A DNA stretch of 14,377 nt from positions 1 through 14,377 of the forward strand of contig JALUYN010000265.1 in assembly GCA_027012915.1 (NCBI GenBank), in the 5' to 3' direction. The notes below the pieces were generated by a model. That model was not told where the DNA came from. It worked only from the letters and a program-made list of their open reading frames with translations, and searched no databases. Source of the stretch: Cellvibrionaceae bacterium. Its GTDB lineage: Bacteria > Pseudomonadota > Gammaproteobacteria > Pseudomonadales > Cellvibrionaceae. Made by a program: the position numbers and the translations under genes. The number at the start of each line of letters is the position of its first letter. Position 1 is the stretch's first letter. Of this stretch, positions 202-14,377 are shown piece by piece.

Positions 202-1029
202 TTACAGACACCAATACGCGAAAGCGACGCAGGCAAATACAAGCACCGCTGCAACGACCAGGTCAGTAGCTCGGTTACCTGTGATTCCCGTTCTGGTTGA
301 GCCGGCGGGAACCGGTGACTCTATAATCTGCACCGATACGTTGTCGCTACCGCCTTGATCCAGGGCTGCGGCGATGAGTTGCTCCGTTGCGGAACTGAGC
401 GACTCTGAATCGCATAGAATTTCGGCGATCTGTTGGTTGCTGACCTCGTCGGTGAGGCCGTCGCTGCAGAGAATAATCCACTGGCCTGCGCCCCATTTGC
501 CCTCGTAACAGTCTACATGAATGTCTGGGTTATCAAATGAGCCTATGCACTGGGTGATGATGTTCTTGTCCGGGTGTTGCTCCATTTCTTCAGCATCGAT
601 AGAGCCGGAATCCAGCAACATTTGTACATAGGAGTGATCGGTGGTGAGCTGTTCCAGCTGTCCGCCTTCGCTGGTTGTGCTCCAGAGATACGCGCGGCTG
701 TCACCCACCCAGGCAATGGTGTAGTTGCGCTCCTGGCATTGTAACGCTACTACCGTAGACCCCATGCCTTGTGCGCCCTGGCCACTTTCTATGGCCTTTA
801 TCACGGCTTGGTGAGAAGCTAGTATGGCGCGGTCCAGTGGGAGGTTGTCTTTGCGATGTTGTTCAATAGTGTTACAGGTGATAGCGCTTGCGACTTCCCC
901 TGCCTCGTGACCGCCCATGCCGTCCGCCACAGCCCAAAGCCCCAGATCTGGGCGATGCAGAATGCAGTCCTCGTTATTGTCCCGCTGTAACCCTTTGTCG
1001 GTTATTGAGTGTGATAACAGGGGCGGCAT
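202..1029 (-). CDS. PP2C-family (PPM) protein phosphatase with C-terminal membrane anchor
   Basis: A 275-residue metal-dependent Ser/Thr phosphatase of the bacterial Stp1/PppA type. PPM motifs appear in order: RDNNED (16-21), ADGMGGHEAGEVAS (35-48, metal-binding D36), GDSRAYL (109-115), TTDHSYVQ (129-136), CSDGLTDEV (188-196, D190) and GGSDNVSV (226-233, D229). All expected metal-ligand aspartates are present, so it should be active. Residues about 255-274 form one hydrophobic segment right at the C-terminus, making it a tail-anchored protein with the catalytic domain in the cytoplasm; the usual family member is soluble and about 240-250 residues. It is followed after 6 bp by the kinase gene it presumably opposes and faces a divergent FHA-protein gene. 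The ATG at 1029 is the first good start but has no strong Shine-Dalgarno, and it lies in one arm of a 10-bp inverted repeat that may mask it in the mRNA. Confidence 0.95.
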   Translation of the reverse strand: MPPLLSHSITDKGLQRDNNEDCILHRPDLGLWAVADGMGGHEAGEVASAITCNTIEQHRKDNLPLDRAILASHQAVIKAIESGQGAQGMGSTVVALQCQERNYTIAWVGDSRAYLWSTTSEGGQLEQLTTDHSYVQMLLDSGSIDAEEMEQHPDKNIITQCIGSFDNPDIHVDCYEGKWGAGQWIILCSDGLTDEVSNQQIAEILCDSESLSSATEQLIAAALDQGGSDNVSVQIIESPVPAGSTRTGITGNRATDLVVAAVLVFACVAFAYWCL

Positions 1030-1102
1030 CGTTTTGATCCGTATCTTGAAAAACGTTGTAGTGTAGCGACAGCCGAGACTTAAAACTGTGACACGATGCC
1101 GC
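1023..1102 (-). promoter_or_regulatory. Inverted repeat enclosing the phosphatase start codon
   Basis: GCGGCATCGT at 1023-1032 and ACGATGCCGC at 1093-1102 are perfect 10-bp inverted arms separated by 60 bp. On the minus-strand transcript the upstream arm could pair with the arm containing the phosphatase ATG (1029-1027). If transcription starts upstream of 1102, this long-range stem would cover the start codon. The structure is seen directly; its function is inference, and an inverted repeat of this length is expected about once by chance in a window this large. Confidence 0.3.
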
Positions 1103-1156
1103 TTTTTTTATTGTGAATAATCTTATGAAACAATCGCAAAAAAATCATCTAAGCTA

Positions 1157-1186
1157 TTGATAAAATAAGTATATTCATTGCATTAT
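1157..1186 (+). promoter_or_regulatory. Candidate sigma-70 promoter for the FHA-protein gene
   Basis: TTGATA (1157-1162) and CATTAT (1181-1186) are separated by 18 bp in the AT-rich centre of the 227-bp region between the divergent phosphatase and FHA genes. The predicted 5' UTR would be about 65 nt. The -35 matches 5 of 6 and the -10 only 4 of 6. The rest of 1030-1256 holds A/T runs and probably the opposite-facing phosphatase promoter, for which I could not pick convincing boxes. Confidence 0.35.
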
Positions 1187-1256
1187 CGACGCAAATCTTA
1201 TCGCCTTTTTAGGTGGTGGCACCAGCCTTTTCTGCACTCTGGAAAGAGAGACGTGA

Positions 1257-2165
1257 ATGCTAAAACTCCGGTTTAAAGACAATCCCAATCAATCTGTGTG
1301 GCTGGTAGAGCCTAAAGTCACTTTGGGTGGGAGCCCTGAGAATGACTTGGTACTCAGTGGTATGAACACACAAATGCATCACGCCGAGATTTTGGTGCAG
1401 CATGAGCAGGTTCAGATGCAGCTGGTTCAGGGTGCTGGCGATACCTTTATCAATGAGCGTCGAATTAACGCTGACCGCGCCTATCCGTTGGCTATCAACG
1501 ATGTAATTCGGATCTGTGGTCAGGAATTGCAACTGATTGATCCCAAGCGGGAACCTCGCCCAAAATCGAAGAAGCGTGCCACAGAAGAAAATACCGGTTG
1601 GGCGCTCAAAGCCAATAGTGCCGCACTATCCAATAGAGTTTACTCTTTGGCTGAAACCACGGTCATTGGGCGTTCTAACGATTGCGATATCAGTTTGGGA
1701 GCTGCACATCTTTCGCGCAGGCATGCGAGTTTGCATGTAAAAAATGGGTTGCTGTATGTGAAGGATCTCGGTTCGTCAAACGGCACCTATCTCAACGGCG
1801 AGCGCATTGCAGAGACTCGGGTAAAACGGGGTGACGAGTTGTGCTTTGATACGCTCAGTTTTGGCGTTATCGGGCCGTCGGATGAGCTGGATAAAACCAC
1901 TGTGCGCAGTGTTGCCAAGCCAGTCTCAGGAAAACCAGCCGCCAGTGTTTCTAAGCCGACCGGTGAAAACAAGGCCGCTCAACAGCGCCCCCCGCAGGGA
2001 ACTGCCAGTAATCGCGCCAAGCCGAAAGTCAGTGTTACGAAACCAACTCCAGAGCAAGTCCAGTCAGTTGAGCCTGCTACGAAATCATCCGGTGGTGGTC
2101 TGATCATTGGTGCTGTCGTGCTGCTAGCTGTGGCAGTTGGCGTTTGGTGGATGTCCCAGTCCTAG
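1257..2165 (+). CDS. Two-FHA-domain protein with C-terminal membrane anchor
   Basis: A 302-residue protein with two forkhead-associated domains, which bind phosphothreonine peptides. The first (about 20-96) is degenerate: it has GGSPENDLVL and HHAEI, but lacks the usual GRS and SRxH residues and NGT loop. The second (about 118-206) is canonical, with GRSNDCDI (138-145), SRRHA (153-157) and SSNGTYLNG (173-181), so it should bind phosphothreonine. A Pro/Lys/Ser/Thr-rich linker (about 212-278) leads to one hydrophobic segment (281-300) at the extreme C-terminus. The start is well supported by GAGAG six bases before the ATG. The gene is divergent from the phosphatase/kinase pair and is the obvious reader of kinase output; the Thr-rich linker (for example DKTTVRS) could itself be a kinase target. 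T6SS Fha1 proteins are built differently and no T6SS genes are nearby, so I do not call it Fha1. The partner is unknown. Confidence 0.92.
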   Translation: MLKLRFKDNPNQSVWLVEPKVTLGGSPENDLVLSGMNTQMHHAEILVQHEQVQMQLVQGAGDTFINERRINADRAYPLAINDVIRICGQELQLIDPKREPRPKSKKRATEENTGWALKANSAALSNRVYSLAETTVIGRSNDCDISLGAAHLSRRHASLHVKNGLLYVKDLGSSNGTYLNGERIAETRVKRGDELCFDTLSFGVIGPSDELDKTTVRSVAKPVSGKPAASVSKPTGENKAAQQRPPQGTASNRAKPKVSVTKPTPEQVQSVEPATKSSGGGLIIGAVVLLAVAVGVWWMSQS

Positions 2166-2254
2166 AGCCGCTGCGTTTTCCGAAAGACAGCGAGTACCAG
2201 AGTGGTCGCGCAGGCGGTAATTTACCTCACTAGGAGACCTTGTGTTAATACGAG

Positions 2255-2280
2255 TCTATCAACAGACATTGATTGATAGA
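2255..2280. repeat. Perfect 8-bp inverted repeat overlapping the promoter upstream of 2357
   Basis: TCTATCAA (2255-2262) and TTGATAGA (2273-2280) flank a 10-bp spacer, and the next 12 bases, AATAATATTATT (2280-2291), are themselves a perfect palindrome. The right arm overlaps the candidate -35 box at 2269-2274 and the AT palindrome abuts the -10. The layout is that of a repressor or activator operator; no regulator is identified. Confidence 0.35.
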
Positions 2281-2296
2281 ATAATATTATTATAGT
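2269..2296 (+). promoter_or_regulatory. Candidate sigma-70 promoter for the DUF5610-like gene
   Basis: TTGATT (2269-2274) and TATAGT (2291-2296) with a 16-bp spacer, in an AT-rich stretch between the FHA gene and the unknown gene at 2357. The -10 matches 5 of 6 and the -35 matches 4 of 6. The 5' UTR would be about 55 nt. Confidence 0.42.
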
Positions 2297-2356
2297 TTTC
2301 GTAGTTTTGGACGATATCTCTGTATGGCCCTAATGGGACCTTCCGGGAGAGGTATC

Positions 2357-3586
2357 ATGCATTCATCTGGCGTTTCAGCACCAAATTCTCACCACGAATC
2401 CCCACAGTACGCTCAAGAGCGGCTGCGTGATTCGTCCTCAAATAATCGCGCTGTCGACACCTTATCCGATAAGGCCTTGCGACAGACTGAAGAGGTGGAC
2501 CGATCGCAGCGTTATCCGGAAAAGAATCCTTCCGCTGTCTACATTCGTTCGGAATCCCGTTATGAATCTTCTTATTCTGCTTCTATAAGATCGTCAAAAG
2601 CTGGCCCGGTTGATGAGCGCATCAGTTCTGAAGCGGCCGCAGGAAGCATTCTATCCTTCATAGAAAATCAGTTGTTGCGAGACATTGAAGATGGCGCTTC
2701 TGAGGAGGAGCTGAGCAGTCGAATCGAAGCCGGGCTATCTGGATTCTTGCAGGGTTTTGAGTCCGCTCGGGAAGACCTTGAGGCGCTGGGCGCATTGACG
2801 CCGGGTGTGGAGTCCGAGATAGGAAAGACCTATGACTCGGTGCTAGCAGGCATAGAAGACCTGAGACAACAGTTTCTAGGAGGGGCTGAGGCTTCGAAGG
2901 GCGGTGAGGTAGCAGCTGAGCCGATTAGCTCTTCAGTTGAGGAACCAGCTCCAGCGCTGCGAGCTCAGAGCCAGTACTTCAGCTACGAGGCGGCGCAGAG
3001 AAACAGTTTCAGTTTCTCGGTTACTACCCAAGATGGTGATACCGTGACTATTCAGAGCTCGGCGCTGCGCTCTATGTTTCAAGAAAGCCTGACTCAGACG
3101 AATTCGAGTAGAGGGAGCCTTGAATACTCGCAGTATGGTTATGGCGAGGAATATCAGTTTGAGCTGCAAGTAGACGGCGAGCTGGATTCCGACGAGATGA
3201 AAGCGCTGACCGAGCTGCTGTCTCAGGTGAACGATCTGGCTGAAGATTTCTTCGCTGGAGATGTTACTGCGGCTTTCGATGCCGCCTTGTCGCTAGGTTA
3301 CGACGATTCGGAGATCAGCAGTTTTGCACTGAATCTGTCGCAGACATCGGTGCAACGCGTGACCTCTGCCTATAGTGAAGCACGCTCAGAGCCGGCCTCT
3401 GTAGCTGAGAGTTTGAGGCCAGTAGGGAGCTTCTCTCGTGCACTTATTGAGGCAACGCAAACAGCGCAAACTTTCCAAAATCCAAGAGAATTGATCGAGT
3501 CTATTGCTGAGGCGATTGACGTTGCCCGCCCCGAAGGCGGATTCAAATCGTTTCTTGAGAGGTTGATGGAAAGCCTCGAGCTATAA
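2357..3586 (+). CDS. Ser/Glu-rich protein of unknown function, resembles DUF5610
   Basis: I do not know a function for this protein. The ATG at 2357 is chosen (409 residues) because GGGAGAGG lies just before it; the in-frame ATGs at 2324 and 2333 have no Shine-Dalgarno. Residues 1-85 are hydrophilic and Ser/Arg/Glu-rich, probably disordered. Residues about 90-176 form a helical domain with the pattern GSILSFIE...GFLQGF-ESAREDLEALGALT...IGKTYDSVLAGIEDL, which I recall from the gammaproteobacterial DUF5610 family. Residues about 214-330 alternate beta-like (FSFSVTTQDGDTVTI, YQFELQVDGELD) and helical segments with LAEDFFAGDVTAAFDAA. It has no signal peptide, membrane segment or cysteine and is strongly acidic, so it is probably cytoplasmic. 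It is a single-gene unit with its own promoter and a terminator 26 bp after the stop. Flagellar or surface-related roles are possible given cheV nearby, but nothing in the sequence proves this. Confidence 0.85.
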   Translation: MHSSGVSAPNSHHESPQYAQERLRDSSSNNRAVDTLSDKALRQTEEVDRSQRYPEKNPSAVYIRSESRYESSYSASIRSSKAGPVDERISSEAAAGSILSFIENQLLRDIEDGASEEELSSRIEAGLSGFLQGFESAREDLEALGALTPGVESEIGKTYDSVLAGIEDLRQQFLGGAEASKGGEVAAEPISSSVEEPAPALRAQSQYFSYEAAQRNSFSFSVTTQDGDTVTIQSSALRSMFQESLTQTNSSRGSLEYSQYGYGEEYQFELQVDGELDSDEMKALTELLSQVNDLAEDFFAGDVTAAFDAALSLGYDDSEISSFALNLSQTSVQRVTSAYSEARSEPASVAESLRPVGSFSRALIEATQTAQTFQNPRELIESIAEAIDVARPEGGFKSFLERLMESLEL

Positions 3587-3611
3587 CCTTATCAGACTTG
3601 GGAGCGTTCAG

Positions 3612-3643
3612 AAGGGCATTCTTTGATAGAATGCCCTTTTTGT
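3612..3643 (+). terminator. Strong rho-independent terminator
   Basis: AAGGGCATTCT (3612-3622), loop TTGAT, AGAATGCCCTT (3628-3638): a perfect 11-bp stem with a 5-nt loop running into TTTTTGTTT. It ends the transcript of the DUF5610-like gene and insulates the glutaredoxin-like gene that begins 17 bp later. Confidence 0.92.
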
Positions 3644-3659
3644 TTGGGTGCTTATAACT

Positions 3660-3905
3660 ATGCGGGACCTCGTTCTATACACGACTCTGGGATGTCATCT
3701 GTGTGATCAGGCAAAAGATGTAATCTGGCCTTGTTTGGAGGTTTTCAGCTATCGCTTGGTGGAAGTCGATATAGCGGAAGATGCAACCTTGGTGGAGCGC
3801 TATGGCGTGAGAATCCCGGTGGTGTATCGTTCGGATTTGGACGAAGAGTTGGGATGGCCCTTTGACGCACAGTCGCTGTCAGAGTTTCTGCAGAGACCCG
3901 TATAA
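3660..3905 (+). CDS. Glutaredoxin-like (thioredoxin-fold) small protein
   Basis: An 81-residue single-domain thioredoxin-fold protein of the glutaredoxin-like/DUF836 type. The redox motif is C12-H-L-C15 in LYTTLGCHLCDQAK after strand one, and the cis-proline is P53 in RIPVVY. These small proteins are thought to act in thiol-disulfide exchange in the cytoplasm; substrates are not established for this group. The ATG at 3660 is chosen, with GGGTG nine bases upstream; an in-frame GTG at 3648 would add four residues but falls immediately after the terminator T-run and lacks a ribosome-binding site. The gene sits between a strong terminator and the cheV promoter. No clear promoter of its own is visible in the 17 bp after the terminator, so expression may depend on read-through or a promoter overlapping that hairpin. 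There is no link to chemotaxis beyond position. Confidence 0.88.
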   Translation: MRDLVLYTTLGCHLCDQAKDVIWPCLEVFSYRLVEVDIAEDATLVERYGVRIPVVYRSDLDEELGWPFDAQSLSEFLQRPV

Positions 3906-3925: not shown

Positions 3926-3952
3926 TAAAAAAACTCGGTTTGCCGCCGATGA
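3926..3952 (+). promoter_or_regulatory. Sigma-28 (FliA) flagellar-class promoter of cheV
   Basis: TAAAAAAA (3926-3933), an 11-bp spacer, then GCCGATGA (3945-3952). The FliA consensus is TAAAGTTT-N11-GCCGATAA: the TAAA core, the exact spacing and 7 of 8 positions of the -10 match. Transcription would begin near 3959, about 70 nt before the cheV ATG. The match to a chemotaxis gene makes this one of the best-supported regulatory sites in the window. Confidence 0.78.
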
Positions 3953-4000: not shown

Positions 4001-4029
4001 GAGTGAGTATTGAAACCCCAGAGGATGCT

Positions 4030-4977
4030 ATGTCCAAACTTCTTGAGTCCGTCGATCAGCGTACCCAGCTTGTAGGTGAAAACCGCCTTGAGCTATTGAT
4101 GTTTAAGCTGGCCGGCCGGCAGATGTTTGCCCTGAACGTATTTAAGATTCAGGAAGTGGTGCAAGTGCCGAATTTGACCGCATTACCCCACAGTCATCCG
4201 GTAATTTGTGGTGTTACCCATTTGCGCGATCAAACCATATCGGTCATCGATCTCAGTGCGGCCATAGGTGGTCCCCCGTTGCGTGACCGAGAAGACTGCA
4301 ATCTGATTGTCACTGAGTACAATCGTAGTGTGCAGGCCTTTCTCGTGGGGCCTGTGGATCGTATCGTTAACTTGAACTGGGATTTGATTTTACCTCCTCC
4401 AAAAGGCACGGGACGTAGTCACTTCCTCACGGCTATTACACGTCTCGAGGATGACATCGTTGAAATTCTCGATGTGGAGCGGGTATTGGCCGACATCATT
4501 CCCTATGAAACGTCAGTTTCTGAAGAAGTTTTGGATCATGAGTTGGTCGATATTGCACAGCAGCGCAACCTTAAGGTGTTGTTGGTTGACGATTCGGCCA
4601 CTGCAATGGCGCAAGTTAAGTCTACCTTGGCAAATATTGGGGTGGAAATTGTCTATCGGCAAGATGGATTGAAAGCTCTGAGCTACCTGAAACAGCTGGC
4701 TGCCGATGGTGTGGATGTCTGTGAAGAGCTGTTTATGGTGATTACCGACGCTGAAATGCCAGAGATGGATGGCTATCGCCTTACTCACGAAATCAGGCAA
4801 GATCCGGCACTCAGTGATCTGTTTGTGTTGCTGCACACATCCCTCTCCGGGAATTTTAACGAGGCCATGGTTAAAAAAGTAGGTTGTAACGGCTTTTTAT
4901 CCAAGTTTCAGCCCGATGAGCTGGCCGAGCGCGTACAAGAACGTTTGCGTGACGTTTTGGGTACTGAGAAGGGGTAG
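4030..4977 (+). CDS. cheV: CheV chemotaxis coupling protein (CheW domain plus receiver)
   Basis: A CheW-like coupling domain (about residues 20-150) is followed by a response-regulator receiver domain (about 182-310), the hallmark of CheV. CheV links chemoreceptors to the CheA kinase, and phosphorylation of its receiver by CheA tunes adaptation. The receiver is complete: acidic pair in VLLVDDS (D187, D188), phospho-acceptor D240 in ITDAEMPEMDG, Thr/Ser switch in LHTS, and conserved Lys in LSKF (K292). The ATG at 4030 (315 residues) is chosen because the family normally begins M-x-x-(I/L)-L-(D/E)-SVDQRTQL, which matches MSKLLESVDQRTQL, and AGAGGA lies four bases upstream; a GTG at 4003 would add nine atypical residues. 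A FliA-type promoter and a hairpin precede it. It converges with a CheZ-like candidate 70 bp downstream. No other che or fli genes are in the window, so this is an orphan chemotaxis locus. Confidence 0.95.
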   Translation: MSKLLESVDQRTQLVGENRLELLMFKLAGRQMFALNVFKIQEVVQVPNLTALPHSHPVICGVTHLRDQTISVIDLSAAIGGPPLRDREDCNLIVTEYNRSVQAFLVGPVDRIVNLNWDLILPPPKGTGRSHFLTAITRLEDDIVEILDVERVLADIIPYETSVSEEVLDHELVDIAQQRNLKVLLVDDSATAMAQVKSTLANIGVEIVYRQDGLKALSYLKQLAADGVDVCEELFMVITDAEMPEMDGYRLTHEIRQDPALSDLFVLLHTSLSGNFNEAMVKKVGCNGFLSKFQPDELAERVQERLRDVLGTEKG

Positions 4978-5047: not shown

Positions 5048-5632
5048 CTAGAACAGTTCAATTTCATCGTCGGTGTCGTCTGTTACCAGTGTGTCTTGGC
5101 TGTCAAAGTGGTGTTTGTAGATCTCAAGTGCTTCCTTGACGGTGGCGCCGCGCATAATGTGTTCAAACATGATGCGTTCGGCCTCCATGGAATAGCTACT
5201 TTTTACGTTGTTCTGAACATCCTGCCATGCATTGGGGCTATTTAGATTGTCGGGGTTTTGCATCAGCTCGCTGGTTTGTTCCAGGCTGCTGGCCACGTGG
5301 TCCAAGCGCTGACTAATGCGGTCGTAAAACTGAAACGCGGTAATGGCCTGGTTGACTTTCTGCTGAATTTCCAACGTAGTTTGTGAGATCTTTTGCTTAA
5401 ATTCTTGAAGTTGATCGGCACTATCCAGTTCTAACACCAGGTTATCCACTTCCCTGGAATGTTCAGCCAGTTCGGTAAATGAGCTGGTCAATTTGTCGAC
5501 GGAATGATTGCTTTCGGAAATCGAGTTCTCAATCTGGCAAACCGCCAGATACAGCATAGTGATGGTTTCCTGGACATGGCTCCAGTCGTCGTATGAATCC
5601 TTGATATCTAAAGGCATGTCGGAAGTGGACAC
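5048..5632 (-). CDS. Unknown helical protein; candidate CheZ-like response-regulator phosphatase
   Basis: A hydrophilic, almost wholly alpha-helical protein of about 194 residues; I do not know it by name. Three starts are possible on the minus strand: TTG 5638, GTG 5632 and ATG 5617. GTG 5632 is preferred because AGGA lies six bases before it; the others lack a spaced ribosome-binding site. A long heptad-rich helix is followed by AFQFYDRISQRLDHV, which aligns without gaps with the CheZ catalytic helix as I remember it (A-x-x-F-x-D-x-x-x-Q-x-x-x-x-V); the equivalents of the CheZ catalytic pair are D104 and Q108. The C-terminus is a flexible acidic tail ending TDDTDDEIELF, like the acidic, Phe-ending CheY-binding peptide of CheZ. 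The gene faces cheV, whose receiver is a plausible substrate. It lies 55 bp downstream of slt, with a TATAAT at the slt stop codon. The phosphatase function is inference; a simple scaffold is the alternative. Confidence 0.8.
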   Translation of the reverse strand: MSTSDMPLDIKDSYDDWSHVQETITMLYLAVCQIENSISESNHSVDKLTSSFTELAEHSREVDNLVLELDSADQLQEFKQKISQTTLEIQQKVNQAITAFQFYDRISQRLDHVASSLEQTSELMQNPDNLNSPNAWQDVQNNVKSSYSMEAERIMFEHIMRGATVKEALEIYKHHFDSQDTLVTDDTDDEIELF

Positions 5633-5686
5633 AAGCAATCCTGCGGTTAGTGGTCGTTTAAGTTCGGGTCACGGTTTCTGCCACAC

Positions 5687-5692
5687 ATTATA
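5687..5692 (-). promoter_or_regulatory. Perfect -10 box (TATAAT) overlapping the slt stop codon
   Basis: The minus strand reads TATAAT from 5692 to 5687, sharing the TAA stop of slt. It lies about 55 nt before the preferred GTG of the CheZ-like candidate, a normal distance. No good -35 is found 16-18 bp upstream, so it would need an activator or be weak. It could let this gene be expressed apart from slt. Confidence 0.3.
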
Positions 5693-7706
5693 GTGGCTGA
5701 TTTGTCTCATGGACACTCAGCAAGCTGGGCACGGTCCCCATGCGGTACCCGTATATGACGGAATAGGCCAGCACATTTTGCACGTATTTGCGGGTTTCCT
5801 GGAAGGGGATTGTCTCGATCCATACGTCATAGGGAAGTTGCTCGGCAGTTTCTTTAAGCCATCCTTTCACCCGCCGTGGTCCGGCGTTATAAGCCGCAGT
5901 TGCCAGAATACGGTTTCCGTTAAACTGTTTCAGCAGTGTCGTAATATACCGGCTTCCCAGTTCAATGTTCTTTTCCGGGGTCAGCAGATCGCGCTTTTTG
6001 TAGCGCAGTCCTGCTTTTCGAGCAGTCATTTTGGCGGTACTTGGCAATAACTGCATGAGACCCATGGCGCCAGCAGGTGAGCGGGCATCGACAGCAAATG
6101 CGCTCTCTTGTCGAGCAATGGCAAAAACCAGTAAGGGGGAAACCTGGAGTTTTTGCGCGGTGTTCAGAACCTGTTTGTTATAGGCCAGAGGGAAACGTAA
6201 CTGCAAATCATCCCAGTGTTTGGCACTGGCAAGAGAAATAATTGTATTGTGGTGCCAGCCCCATTGGCTCGCGAGTTTGGCGGCCGTGATATGCTCCTGT
6301 GGGGTCAATGTTTGGGTAAGGTGGAACCACTCACGGCGAGCATTCAGCGGGTCGTTGACCATAAGCAATTCCCTGGCGCGCATCGCTCCAGGTCTATTGG
6401 CCAATTCACTCAAGCGATCGGGAGCGATATTACTTGGGGAATCTCCGAGATTGTACTGGTGACCGAGCCTGTCGGCGGCGAGAAAGCCGTAATAACCTCG
6501 CTGCATAGCCAGTTCGGTGTAGAGTGCCTTGGCTTCGCTGGCTCCTTCGTTCTCTTGCTGTTCCAGCGCTCGAGCGCGCCAGTAGCGCCAGCGTTCGGAT
6601 TGTTGCAATGACTGAGGCAGTTTTGCGATATAGCTAAGCGCCTTATCCCAATCCATCTCCTTGAGGAATTCTCGTATCAGGCCTTCGCTGAGCTTTTCTG
6701 AGGTGAGCTGTGGGATCTGCTCAATCAGGGCCTCTGCATCTTGTTGGTGTCCTTGTTTTACCAAACGCGAGGCAATGAACTGTTGGGTGTTGAAGCGACG
6801 CTCGTCGTCAAACAATTGTTGCGCGTCGTAGCGTTGCCATTGCTGGTAGGCGTGCTGTGCGTCTCGACGTGCGTAGCGTTTGATTCCGTGCAGAATAATT
6901 GCCCGCATCCTTGGGGATTGTTCCTGAAAACGGCTGTTTTTTTCCAGTAGAGCGGGTGTGCGGTGCACGTTTATATACAGATCAGAATAGGTTTTGTATT
7001 CATCGTTGAATTGCTTTGCAATATAACGAGCCAGTCTTGTTTTGCTCTTATCCATGGCTTTCACGAAGCGCTGCCAAGCCATTTCCTGCGTGAAATACTC
7101 GGTGTTGCTCCATAGCTTGAACAGTGGATCGCATTCATCCGGTTGAGAGTGCCCCACGTTCCAGAGGGTTTCTACTTCTTCCAATGCCGTGCGATCTCCG
7201 GTGCGGATACGGGCTTCCAACGCGTAACACTGAAGTACTGTATTTTCTGAGGAGTGGTAGTAGGTCCGGAAATCGTGCCAACGTTTCTTTTGCGCCAGGG
7301 TGTTTAACCATTGTTTGGTCAGGCGTGCCTTTAATAGCGGGTGAGAAGTCTCTGCCAAGTATTGATCTACGTCATTGTAGGGTAGGCGAGCAAGTCGCCG
7401 TCGTAGCTCGAAGTAATCCAGATAGGGGGTGAGGGGGTAGTTGAGCAGCTGCTCACGGTGTTGGCGATAACTCTTGATTTGTCCCTTATGCAGCGCGTCG
7501 CGCGCAGACAGATAGCTTTGGCGCTGCTGTTGCAGTGGGTCGAGTCTGTGGCTTGTGGAGCTGATATTCAGTGCGGTGGCATTTGCACAAATGCAAACAA
7601 ACGCCAGTAGTCCATAAAGGCGCTGCCAACCAGTACGGCATGGTGTTATCTGGCTTTCGTTGCCTTTGTCTGTATAACCTATTCTCTTCAACTTCCTGTA
7701 CCCCAA
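5688..7706 (-). CDS. slt: Soluble lytic murein transglycosylase (Slt70 type)
   Basis: A periplasmic lytic transglycosylase that cleaves the MurNAc-GlcNAc bond of peptidoglycan to form 1,6-anhydro ends. Length (672) is close to the Slt70 precursor of E. coli (about 645). After a hydrophobic signal segment (about 30-45, YGLLAFVCICANATA) comes a long helical superhelix (about 50-490) and a C-terminal lysozyme-like domain. That domain has the catalytic glutamate E534 in ARQESAFAVDARS, followed by GAMGLMQLLPSTA, AYNAGPRRVKGW and the IPFQETRKYVQNVLAY region. The start is a problem: the frame has no ATG between its upstream TAG and residue ~218. Only TTG at 7706 or 7691 is available, neither with a well-spaced Shine-Dalgarno, so the true N-terminus is uncertain. 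The gene is divergent from uup and upstream of, and co-directional with, the CheZ-like candidate. Confidence 0.95.
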   Translation of the reverse strand: MGYRKLKRIGYTDKGNESQITPCRTGWQRLYGLLAFVCICANATALNISSTSHRLDPLQQQRQSYLSARDALHKGQIKSYRQHREQLLNYPLTPYLDYFELRRRLARLPYNDVDQYLAETSHPLLKARLTKQWLNTLAQKKRWHDFRTYYHSSENTVLQCYALEARIRTGDRTALEEVETLWNVGHSQPDECDPLFKLWSNTEYFTQEMAWQRFVKAMDKSKTRLARYIAKQFNDEYKTYSDLYINVHRTPALLEKNSRFQEQSPRMRAIILHGIKRYARRDAQHAYQQWQRYDAQQLFDDERRFNTQQFIASRLVKQGHQQDAEALIEQIPQLTSEKLSEGLIREFLKEMDWDKALSYIAKLPQSLQQSERWRYWRARALEQQENEGASEAKALYTELAMQRGYYGFLAADRLGHQYNLGDSPSNIAPDRLSELANRPGAMRARELLMVNDPLNARREWFHLTQTLTPQEHITAAKLASQWGWHHNTIISLASAKHWDDLQLRFPLAYNKQVLNTAQKLQVSPLLVFAIARQESAFAVDARSPAGAMGLMQLLPSTAKMTARKAGLRYKKRDLLTPEKNIELGSRYITTLLKQFNGNRILATAAYNAGPRRVKGWLKETAEQLPYDVWIETIPFQETRKYVQNVLAYSVIYGYRMGTVPSLLSVHETNQPL

Positions 7707-10876: not shown

Positions 10877-11716
10877 TCAGCTGGCCGAATTTTCATTGTC
10901 CAATGCAGCTTCCTCTGCAGATGACTCAGTAGAACTTTCTGCTTCTTCGGCCGCCTCGGTTTCCTGCAACTGCTCGTCGATCGAGAATGATGTGGTGCCA
11001 TCGTCGCCCGGGTTGTATTGCTTTTCAGGCATTAATTCTGAGCTCAGTGCTTTGCGTTTTCCTGCCATCATATCCGATAGCTCTTTGATCATTCGATGTC
11101 GCTGGGGATTGGTGTGGGCCGAATTGGCGAGAAGCTGTTGTGCCTTGCGATAGAACGCGTGGGCACTGAGTACGTCATTGCGGTTCATGGCCTTGTGGCC
11201 CTGGCCAATAAAGGTGATGACTTCCGTGGTCAGATGAGCCCACGCAAGCTCACCGATAAACGCATTCATCTCTTCAAGTGAGATTTTTCCGCTGCCTTGT
11301 TGTTTGCGGATAATGCGTCCAGCTTCTTTGAGGTAGCCTTGAGCTTGGGCAATTTGTTTATCGCTTTCTTTCAGGCGGTCGTAGACCTTATCCCGGTTTT
11401 CATCAGATAGCACATCATGACGGCCAATGGCTGCTTGGTAGCTGGCCTGCAGAAATGTGGCATCCTCGCCACTTTCTTTGGCGGCGGCCAACATTTCAAT
11501 AATATCTTCGTTGATAATGCGTGGAATAGCCCGGGACTCTACCAGTTGGTCCAGTTCTACCACCAATTCTTCCAGTTCGCTGCTTTTACGCTTAACCTGA
11601 TTGAGTTTTTTCCTCAGCAGTTTCTGGCGTTTTTCCCGCTCGTTGATAAAGCTCACCACCGCCAGAGAAAAAATAGCGATGGCGATGAGGAGAATAAGAA
11701 TGGACAGGGCGGACAT
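10877..11716 (-). CDS. Unknown membrane-anchored coiled-coil protein with acidic tail
   Basis: The ATG at 11716 is chosen (279 residues) because it places a transmembrane helix right at the N-terminus (about 4-24, LSILILLIAIAIFSLAVVSF); a GTG at 11827 would add 37 hydrophilic residues before it. Neither start has a clear Shine-Dalgarno. After the helix comes a very basic coiled coil (about 27-62, EREKRQKLLRKKLNQVKRK), then a helical domain (about 65-215) with PRIINEDIIEMLAAA, and AHAFYRKAQQLLANS like a short TPR-type helix pair. An acidic, Ser/Glu-rich tail (last ~55 residues) follows. It is probably an inner-membrane protein with a cytoplasmic body. It resembles conserved hypotheticals near topA or usp in pseudomonads as I recall them; no function is known to me. 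It is divergent from topA across a 363-bp regulatory region. Confidence 0.85.
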   Translation of the reverse strand: MSALSILILLIAIAIFSLAVVSFINEREKRQKLLRKKLNQVKRKSSELEELVVELDQLVESRAIPRIINEDIIEMLAAAKESGEDATFLQASYQAAIGRHDVLSDENRDKVYDRLKESDKQIAQAQGYLKEAGRIIRKQQGSGKISLEEMNAFIGELAWAHLTTEVITFIGQGHKAMNRNDVLSAHAFYRKAQQLLANSAHTNPQRHRMIKELSDMMAGKRKALSSELMPEKQYNPGDDGTTSFSIDEQLQETEAAEEAESSTESSAEEAALDNENSAS

Positions 11717-11819
11717 ATTGGATACGGTGTCTTTGGGGTATGGCTTTGGTGTAAGCCTAGCATAGGAGTCGGTTGTTTCAGTAGTCGGCCGGCTGCTGCC
11801 ATTCTTGATGATTTGGCGG

Positions 11820-11844
11820 GATATCACTACCGTCGGTGGATATC
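11820..11844. repeat. Nested palindrome (operator-like)
   Basis: GATATC (11820-11825) and GATATC (11839-11844) flank a perfect inner palindrome, ACCG-T-CGGT (11829-11837). The 25-bp element has near-dyad symmetry around 11833. Position between divergent genes fits an operator or a DNA-bending site; no binding protein is identified. Confidence 0.35.
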
Positions 11845-11970: not shown

Positions 11971-12079
11971 TGACGCCCTTTAGCCACTGACTGCGACTGT
12001 TGTGGTCACGCTTGTGCAGACTTTGTCCTTTATGGTTAATTTTGCATCAAAAGTTATCAATACAGAGATTAAACTGATT

Positions 12080-14377
12080 ATGGGTAAATCCTTGGTGATC
12101 GTGGAGTCGCCGGCAAAGGCGAAGACCATCAATAAATACCTCGGCAACGATTTTATTGTGAAATCGAGCATCGGCCATATTAGGGATCTGCCCACCAGTG
12201 GTGGTGCGAAAAAGCCCGTGGATGCAAAAGAACGGGCGAGGCAAGCAGCGATTACCCGCAAACTGTCCCCAGAGCAAAAGGTTGAGCACAAGCGCAAGAA
12301 AGCCAAAGAGCAGTTGATCAATCGTATGGGTATCAATCCTGAGAATAATTGGGAAGCTCACTACGAAGTACTGCCTGGCAAAGAGAAGGTGGTTGAGGAA
12401 CTCAAGTCTCTCGCGGAAAAAGCCGACGTCGTTTATCTCGCAACGGATTTGGATCGCGAGGGAGAAGCGATTGCCTGGCACCTGCAACAGGCGATTGGCG
12501 GCGACGAGAGCCGCTATCGCCGGGTAGTGTTTAATGAGATCACTAAGAGTGCGATTCAAGACGCCTTTAAACAACCCGGTCCCGTTGACTTAAATCGTGT
12601 TAATGCACAGCAAGCACGACGCTTTCTGGATCGTGTCGTGGGCTATATGGTGTCACCGCTGTTGTGGGAGAAGGTAGCCCGTGGATTGTCAGCCGGTCGC
12701 GTGCAATCGGTGGCAGTGCGTTTGGTTGTGGAGCGTGAGCGCGAAATTCGCGCGTTTATTCCCGAAGAATACTGGGATGTGTTTGCGGACCTGACCACAG
12801 CCGACAAGGATCAAATCCGTTTTGAGGTCAAAAAACACGGCGGCAGTGCCTTTAAGCCTCTCAACGAGGCTCAGGCTATGGCGGCAGTTGAGCTGCTCAG
12901 CTCTAGTACTTACAAGGTTGCCAGTCGCGAGGACAAACCGACTCAGTCAAAACCAGGCGCTCCATATATCACCTCGACCTTGCAACAGGCGGCCAGTACG
13001 CGACTTGGTTTCAGTGTCAAGAAAACCATGATGATGGCGCAGCGTCTGTATGAGGCAGGCTACATTACCTACATGCGTACGGATTCAACTAATCTCAGCA
13101 AAGAAGCGGTAGAAAATTGCAGAGATTATATTCTGGAAAACTACGGCAAAAAGTACTTGCCCAAAGCCGCGGTGTCCTATTCCAGTAAAGAGGGGGCTCA
13201 GGAAGCTCACGAAGCTATTCGTCCCTCTGCAGTTACCATTAAACCCACTCAGCTTACGGGTATGGAACGCGACGCCGAGCGTTTATACAGTTTGATATGG
13301 CAGCAGTTTGTTGCCTGCCAGATGACTCCGGCAGAATTCACCAGTACCTCATTGGTGGTTGCAGCAGGAGATTTCGAACTCAGAACTCGTGGTCGGGTAA
13401 TTCGCTTTGACGGTTTTATGAAAGTACAGCCGCCTCAGTCCAAGAAAGACGATGACGTTGTCTTGCCGGAAGTGGCTGTAGGTGACGTACTGGATCTCAA
13501 GAAACTTGAGCCTAACCAGCACTTCACCAAACCACCTGCGCGTTACACCGAAGCAAGTTTGGTAAAAGAGTTGGAAAAGCGTGGCATTGGTCGTCCCTCA
13601 ACATACGCTTCGATCATTTCGACGATTCAGGATCGCGGTTATGCACATGTCGACAAGCGACGTTTTTACGCCGACAAAATGGGCGATATCGTTACCGAGC
13701 GGCTCACGGAAAACTTTTCTGATTTAATGGACTACAGTTTTACCGCCAATATGGAAGAGTCCCTGGATAAGGTAGCTGATGGTGATATTGAGTGGCACGA
13801 TCTGCTGAATGATTTCTATCGCGACTTTTCTATCACGCTTTTGAATGCGCAGAACGACGATGGCGGAATGCGTCCAAATGCGCCCACCGAGACAGATATT
13901 CCGTGTCCCACTTGCGGTCGGAATATGCAGATTCGTACCGGTACTACCGGGGTTTTCCTGGGCTGTTCCGGATATGCATTGCCTCCCAAGGAACGCTGCA
14001 AAACCACCTTAAATCTTGTCTCTGGTGACGAGGCTGTAAACGTCGATGATGACGATGAGGCGGAATCCAAACAATTGCGCCAGAAGCATCGCTGTAGCAT
14101 CTGTAATACCGCTATGGACAGCTACCTGCTAGACGAAACCCGTAAGCTGCATATCTGCGGTAATAATCCGGATTGCTCCGGATTCGAAGTAGAGCAGGGC
14201 AGCTTCAAGCTGAAAGGCTATGAAGGTCCGGTCATCGAATGTGACAAATGTGGCAGCGAAATGCAGTTGAAGACCGGTCGCTTTGGCAAGTACTTCGGAT
14301 GTACTTCGGAGACCTGCAAAAACACCCGCAAGCTGCTGAAAAATGGTGAGGCTGCTCCGCCGAAAATGGACCCAGTG
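12080..14377 (+). CDS. topA: DNA topoisomerase I (3'-truncated by window edge)
   Basis: Type IA topoisomerase that relaxes negative supercoils by transient single-strand cleavage. The ATG at 12080 opens [16 protein letters not shown], the TOPRIM start with its catalytic Glu. The TOPRIM acidic motif DLDREGEA follows, then [16 protein letters not shown] and [14 protein letters not shown]. The active-site tyrosine is Y331 in YITYMRTDS, and EAHEAIRPS and [12 protein letters not shown] complete the core. After it come three zinc-ribbon (C4) motifs: from C609 (CPTCG...GVFLGC), CSICN...LHICG, and from C721 (CDKCG...GKYFGC). The frame is open for 766 codons to the end of the window; E. coli TopA has about 865, so roughly the last 100 residues are missing here. 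It includes the basic insertion ([18 protein letters not shown]) seen in many gammaproteobacterial TopA. The ribosome-binding site is weak (AGAGAT ten bases upstream). It is essential or near-essential in most bacteria. Confidence 0.97.

Follow-up and report, generated by a model that had tools for sequence, protein, structure and literature searches.

The 14,377-nucleotide window analysed here carries, on its minus strand, a gene for a 194-residue helical protein, called CZL below, which represents a real and conserved family that is undescribed in the sources we searched. With moderate confidence, we favour a reading in which CZL acts as a soluble phosphatase on a CheY-type receiver, much as CheZ does, and usually works beside classical CheZ. 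Profile comparisons indicate that CZL is homologous to the C-terminal module of a set of MCP-like membrane proteins, and its relation to CheZ appears better seen through this intermediate family. More surprising than CZL itself are its receptor-borne relatives.

A conserved family with a D...Q helix and an acidic tail

The CZL gene occupies positions 5048..5632 of the minus strand, with a GTG start at 5632 and its stop codon at 5048–5050. In our reading of the open reading frame, AGGA lies six bases upstream of this GTG, and an alternative in-frame TTG at 5638 would make the protein 196 residues long. The first-pass annotation of this DNA had placed a CheZ-like protein here and pointed to D104, Q108 and a DDEIELF end, and both the position of the frame and these features had been read correctly. 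Judged from the named relatives of its proteins, the organism would be a bacterium near Cellvibrionaceae.

No Pfam or NCBIfam family covers CZL, as the earlier annotation had anticipated in having no family name for it; the matches found are below cut-off (best E 2.1e-4) and look like coiled-coil noise. The open-licence literature searched likewise gave no description of the family, nor of chemoreceptors with a CheZ-type module. A protein search from the window protein returned 436 relatives and a second one, from a Colwellia member, returned 891, and the best 120 of each were examined. The species-genome collection contains at least 541 stretches with CZL, and the 80 loci listed from these carry gammaproteobacterial or unplaced names.

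Residue conservation was scored on 118 of the best 120 of the 436 homologues (160–215 residues; two fragments were dropped). A99, Q101, F102, Y103, D104, R105, Q108, R109, H112, D189 and F194 are kept in 118/118 of these sequences, and F100 and L193 in 117/118 each. The catalytic-type motif, A99-F-Q-F-Y-D104-R-I-S-Q108-R-L-D-H112 (5297..5338, minus strand), falls in the second long helix of the predicted structure, and a second conserved patch, M26-L-Y-L-A-V-C-Q-I-E35 (5528..5557, minus strand), falls in the first helix, where C32 and Q33 are invariant in the same 118 homologues. Conservation exceeds the D and Q and takes in A99–H112, C32–Q33, W136 and a YxME element. The acidic, Phe-ending C-terminal tail DDEIELF (5051..5071, minus strand), presumed to be a docking peptide, closes as D189-E-[IV]-E-L-F194 across the 118 homologues; among the best 120 of the 436 relatives, 83 end in EIELF and 32 in EVELF, with four rarer endings.

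The pattern xxxF[QYHF]DxxxQ combined with an F-ending tail is found in 120/120 relatives of the window protein (best 120 of 436), in 120/120 relatives of the Colwellia member (best 120 of 891) and in 80/80 of the genome loci listed. D-x-x-x-Q by itself is common, with a mean of 1.84 occurrences per protein in 156 sequences, and so is nothing special alone; on these alignments it is its conservation in CZL that is special. The genome contigs were scanned with the patterns [SA][IV]xAFQFYD and [TS]ME[AS]ER[IL]M, and because the motif is part of the scan, the 80 loci were to some extent bound to keep A, F and D. A profile-based, pattern-free survey that covered 274 genomes from a single class is therefore the fairer sample. 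Its 30 loci, which are the best profile matches, have the D...Q motif in 30/30 cases; 29/30 end in [IVF][ED][LF]F (the exception is L110), and 20/30 pass a stricter tail pattern, [DEN][IVL]x[LFMV]F. The D104/Q108 pair and the C-terminal LF singled out in the first-pass annotation are thus conserved across homologues.

An AlphaFold2 model built from 76 sequences (mean pLDDT 76.7, pTM 0.60) predicts an all-helical protein, in which a long helical hairpin of residues 18–125 (5258..5581, minus strand; helices 18–68 and 73–125 joined by a turn) is followed by short helices up to residue 182 and by a disordered, low-confidence tail without regular structure. The D/Q pair is predicted in the second long helix, as in CheZ, in agreement with the fold that had been foreseen. 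D104 sits 21 residues ahead of the end of this helix; the corresponding distance from D to the hairpin end is 25 residues in E. coli CheZ, whose aspartate is D143. The E. coli CheZ hairpin spans residues 35–168 and is followed by a linker and a C-terminal helix at 199–214 (PMC7750401). From their mirror position in the modeled hairpin, we infer that C32–Q33 sit at roughly the same height as Q108, suggesting that these residues share a functional surface. Comparisons of CZL with the PDB were generic, the fold searches returning no more than a helical hairpin.

Relation to CheZ and to MCP-like membrane proteins

CheZ (PF04344; PDB 1kmi), the CheY-P phosphatase of Proteobacteria, and the modeled CZL each show a long hairpin whose second helix carries DxxxQ. 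Both also have A and F preceding this motif, and in each the acidic, Phe-ending peptide lies almost equally far from D, with 83–91 residues between D and the C-terminus in CZL versus 76–87 in 24 CheZ proteins of carrier genomes. The published CheZ signature, AXXF(Y)Q directly preceding DXXXQ (PMC7750401), has its counterpart in A99-x-x-F102-Y103-D104-x-x-x-Q108. The A is present in 120/120 of the best 120 of 436 relatives, in 118/120 of the best 120 of 891 and in 76/80 loci, and the F is kept by the family, whereas the Q that precedes D in CheZ is replaced by Y, rarely by F or H. The two proteins further differ between D and Q, where CZL mostly reads [RK]-x-[STC] and CheZ L-T-G, and in the tail, DDEIELF in CZL versus ...DDLLSSLGF in CheZ, with SSLGF ending 24/24 CheZ proteins of the carrier genomes. 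Unlike CheZ, CZL has no identified cheY neighbour.

The Pfam scan of the window CZL gave no PF04344 match at E ≤ 1, and CheZ is not among the 25 listed of the 265 families matched by 76 CZL relatives. An HMM built from 24 CheZ proteins, scored on 156 CZL sequences and on controls, places the D and Q of CZL exactly on those of CheZ in 112/156 sequences, which are related to one another so that the counts are not independent. The median CZL score is 3.8 (maximum 14.0), compared with 0.8 (6.5) for reversed, −1.8 (5.6) for shuffled and −0.1 (5.0) for motif-masked sequences. Since the signal is gone once the motif is masked, the direct link between CZL and CheZ is the motif alone. The profile–profile alignment of the two is in the right register and weak (P 0.2), and its whole-profile score is not above the null, being reached by 23/100 heptad-preserving column permutations.

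Having no whole-profile match to CheZ, CZL is therefore not filed as CheZ; membership of that family is unsupported by the Pfam scan and by the whole-profile score, which lies within the null. Of the remote CheZ-like character proposed at first, conservation of the motif and of the C-terminal LF and a predicted hairpin are supported, whereas Pfam and the whole profile give no match to CheZ. Common descent of CZL and CheZ lacks direct support on present evidence; judged from the sequences, CZL is probably CheZ-like in action and is not a demonstrated CheZ member. The Helicobacter CheZ (HP0170), a remote CheZ of another bacterial group, offers a precedent for CZL, CheZ function there reportedly surviving with little sequence identity, as attributed to Lertsethtakarn and Ottemann in 2010.

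CheC, CheX and FliY, which have another fold and an ExxN-type motif, share with CZL its presumed job, the removal of CheY-P; CZL is predicted to be all-helical, unlike these proteins, and at E ≤ 1 the window CZL has no Pfam match to a CheC, CheX or FliY family. Kinases of the HisKA_3 type carry a DxxxQ phosphatase motif in a helix, with the D following the phospho-accepting His. They resemble CZL in their helical D...Q pair, whereas in CZL D104 follows Y103 and there is no kinase domain.

The class survey also caught MCP-like membrane proteins of about 400 residues. Twenty survey regions were fetched, 18 of which encode MCP-like proteins (three of them read as 291, 354 and 449 residues) and two short CZL-like frames. 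QF[QE]D...Q and an [IVL]x[LF]F end are present in 18/18 MCP-like proteins; four of them (L149, L150, L151 and L153) read D-L-T-x-Q, near the invariant D-L-T-G-Q of CheZ, and on this reading may be the closest link to it. With the C-terminal part of one MCP-like protein as query, 48 relatives were retrieved, the named ones being chemotaxis or methyl-accepting chemotaxis proteins (PF00015). F-Q-D-R-x-x-Q and a [DE][IV]TFF end are common to all 48, which keep the FQ of the CheZ signature, but its A in 5/48. The MCP signalling domain is matched by 28/28 of those scanned, and the window CZL reaches E 0.15 against PF00015, below the cut-off. A TM-like segment is found in 42/48 of the MCP-like relatives and in 0/120 CZL proteins (best 120 of 436). 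The MCP-like proteins and CZL have in common the D...Q helix, a SYTM/TYTT element and the Phe-ending tail, and differ in the TM-like segment and the MCP signalling hairpin, neither of which is present in CZL. The predicted model of one MCP-like protein places D328/Q332 in a long helix (148–354), after which come short helices and a low-confidence tail. The MCP-like set (L139–L156; P0121–P0168), in which a CheZ-like D...Q helix is joined to a DITFF- or ELF-type tail, includes members from Gammaproteobacteria, Azospira, Roseateles, Geothrix and Holophaga. These proteins are possibly receptor–phosphatase chimeras.

The C-terminal part of the MCP-like proteins aligns with CZL at an hhalign Prob of 97.6 (E 4.6e-12), and the alignment extends beyond the motif into SYTMEAER/TYTTEEQ. 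Its score is 77.8, where the highest of 60 nulls is 19.95. With the motif masked the match still reaches Prob 83 (E 8.9e-6); the stretch preceding the motif gives no match on its own. Toward CheZ, the MCP-like module scores 30.1, above all 100 nulls (maximum 24.4), and the CheZ HMM puts D and Q on those of CheZ in 47/48 MCP-like relatives, with medians for CZL and MCP-like relatives that exceed the reversed and shuffled controls. CheZ is also the second most frequent Pfam family of the 28 scanned MCP-like relatives, matched by 7/28 at E ≤ 0.1 (best 5.8e-4, 20.2 bits versus a cut-off of 30.7), other coiled-coil families reaching at most five. Both the CZL profile and, below cut-off, the CheZ model caught three frames of about 400 residues, of which G067 has two and G246 has one. 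Because the MCP-like module matches both CZL and CheZ above the nulls, the chain from CZL through this module to CheZ is stronger than the direct CZL–CheZ comparison; when CZL and the MCP-like module are taken together against CheZ, 3/100 nulls reach the score.

The same homology would fit a CZL that serves as an adaptor or localisation factor without catalytic activity, coming from an MCP-like C-terminal part, in which the D...Q pair is structural and the tail docks a chemotaxis protein. The persistence of the match under motif masking, the weak similarity of CZL to the MCP signalling domain and the breadth of its conserved stretch are all in keeping with such a role. A scaffold would however have no need of D and Q at the exact spacing of CheZ, with A and F ahead of D, nor of their combination with an acidic Phe-ending tail at a CheZ-like distance, and we regard an adaptor as unlikely. 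Sequence work in itself cannot separate the two functions.

Flagellar genomes and gene neighbourhood

Among the 274 survey genomes, 31 have a clear CZL. They were hand-picked from 47 profile matches (E ≤ 2.4e-13), the 16 dropped being mostly MCP-like frames of about 400 residues; two of the dropped genomes, G197 and G201, also have short CZL-like frames. FliM is present in 28/31 CZL genomes and the other three have CheZ. FliM or CheZ is thus found in 31/31 CZL genomes versus 152/274 overall (Fisher p 2.5e-9, ignoring kinship), in a sample that is phylogenetically dependent, consists in good part of MAGs of unstated completeness, and counts as CheZ two matches below the Pfam cut-off and an 18-residue end fragment in G253. 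A second carrier set comprises 34 genomes, 31 of which have CheZ, and CheA (PF02895) and FliM each occur in 19/19 of these carriers tested. The association with chemotaxis genes expected by the first-pass annotation is borne out by these counts, all 31 CZL genomes of the survey looking flagellated or chemotactic.

Among FliM-positive genomes, the presence of CZL is independent of that of CheZ (odds ratio 0.98), so CZL is usually an addition to CheZ and not a substitute; no pattern of CZL replacing CheZ was found among these genomes. CheX and CheC were not found in seven of the nine FliM-positive carriers of the two sets that have no CheZ match, and CZL is a candidate phosphatase for these seven flagellated genomes.

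The neighbours of CZL vary. In the window, it is preceded on the same strand, across a gap of 55 bp, by slt, a soluble lytic transglycosylase gene (5688..7706, minus strand; PF01464, PF14718), and a Slt match precedes CZL in 23/80 of the genome loci listed. In loci without cheV, the scanned neighbours are mutually unrelated (RecJ, release factor, glutamine synthetase, EAL-HDOD, sigma-54-type regulator). CZL abuts EAL-HDOD genes in L034 and L075, and in a Methylophaga MAG (L080:4993-8495) it lies directly after a 532-residue gene and the gene of a sigma-54-type response regulator, on the same strand. Arrangements of this kind would suit a CZL whose substrate is a receiver unconnected with flagellar chemotaxis, for instance an adjacent response regulator or one of a pilus-type system. 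The contexts change from lineage to lineage, yet the tie to FliM or CheZ holds in 31/31 genomes, and we find such a target improbable.

The convergent neighbour of CZL in the window is cheV (4003..4977, plus strand), which encodes a CheW domain (PF01584, 6.9e-33) and a receiver domain (PF00072, 6.5e-14); the two genes lie tail to tail with 70 bp between them. Upstream of cheV, a promoter match of the sigma-28 (FliA) type, TAAA-N15-GCCGATGA (3926..3952, plus strand), agrees at 11/12 positions with the sigma-28 consensus, and the FliA control of cheV asserted earlier is credible. The window CZL gene is without a site of this type, and the regions upstream of CZL show no enrichment of such sites, which occur in 19/80 loci versus 24 percent of random stretches.

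The first-pass annotation had suggested that CZL might act on the CheV receiver or on a CheY. Specificity for the CheV receiver would agree with the proximity of the two genes, with the receiver domain of the window CheV and with the proposal that CheV is a phosphate sink (PMC4742279). In 30/80 loci a convergent cheV match is found no more than about 1.1 kb from CZL, whereas the other 50 have no cheV match at E < 1e-20 (some loci end early, and cheV may be elsewhere in the genome). Where cheV is near, the arrangement looks, as far as seen, like one inherited gene block, with a MOSC-domain gene between them in L030. CheV is matched in 18/21 carriers at E ≤ 1e-15, with two matches weak or partial (G027 and G102); G028, G029 and G165 give no match at this threshold and keep the CZL motif and tail. 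Being near in 30/80 loci and unmatched in 3/21 carriers at E ≤ 1e-15, CheV is unlikely as a family-wide target, and its role as a general partner is not supported; a CZL acting specifically on the CheV receiver is very improbable.

Elsewhere in the window, positions 202-3905 group a PP2C-like protein (recognised by eye) with FHA-domain, DUF5610 and glutaredoxin-like proteins; near CZL, PP2C-like and DUF5610 matches occur in 9/80 loci each and FHA matches in 8/80. The frame at 10877-11827 encodes a protein that by eye has one TM segment, a helical look and an acidic tail; it has no Pfam or NCBIfam family above cut-off and is matched near CZL in 11/80 loci. An open frame leaving the window (12002-14377) resembles DNA topoisomerase I by eye.

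Proposed action of CZL

In CheZ, a D/Q mechanism operates in which Q147 reaches the phospho-aspartate of the receiver, and the CheZ C-terminus and the FliM N-terminus both dock CheY. For CZL as a phosphatase, we infer the identity of the receiver, its binding, catalysis and a dimer from this analogy. Two CZL hairpins would pair to form a dimeric four-helix bundle. The flexible DDEIELF tail would provide the docking contact with the receiver, in the manner of the C-terminus of CheZ and the N-terminus of FliM. D104 would then contact the conserved lysine of the receiver, and Q108 would enter its active site and position the attacking water, giving faster hydrolysis of the phospho-aspartate. CZL would work alongside classical CheZ in most carriers seen, and in some genomes of Competibacter type it could be the principal phosphatase for CheY-P.

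The CZL tail, D-E-I-E-L-F, resembles the CheY-binding peptide of FliM, D-E-I-D-A-L-L, and LLSQ[DA]EIDALL is found in 5/8 FliM N-termini from carrier genomes. That this tail is instead a CheR- or CheB-docking pentapeptide, like the Phe-terminated ones of some chemoreceptors and as the [DE][IV]TFF ends of 48/48 MCP-like relatives might suggest, can hardly be right, as the pentapeptide consensus requires an aromatic residue at the second position, where CZL has I or V in 120/120 sequences (best 120 of 436), and as CZL itself is no receptor.

Termination of the chemotaxis signal is generally attributed to CheZ, CheC, CheX and FliY; of these, CheZ, CheC and CheX are named in one source (PMC9321776). 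A further phosphatase family, for the most part accompanying a normal CheZ, would alter the models for how the CheY-P level is set, and carriers may have a second way of turning off the swim signal. More tentatively, and with rather less confidence than we place in a phosphatase role for CZL, the CZL and MCP-like proteins could together make up a so far undescribed superfamily whose members act as CheZ-type phosphatases on receivers, with a soluble branch parallel to CheZ and a membrane branch built into receptors, CheZ itself being perhaps a branch from a chemoreceptor-type helical hairpin. If so, a receptor could itself dephosphorylate the CheY that it helps to generate, and kinase control and phosphatase would be united in one protein.

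The FliM N-terminus is divergent, reading LTQDERDAL or TPDERAAL, in the Competibacter-type genomes G028, G029 and G102 (L161, L162 and L166), which are among the seven carriers without CheZ, CheX and CheC or are their kin; in five other carriers it reads SQ[DA]EIDALL.
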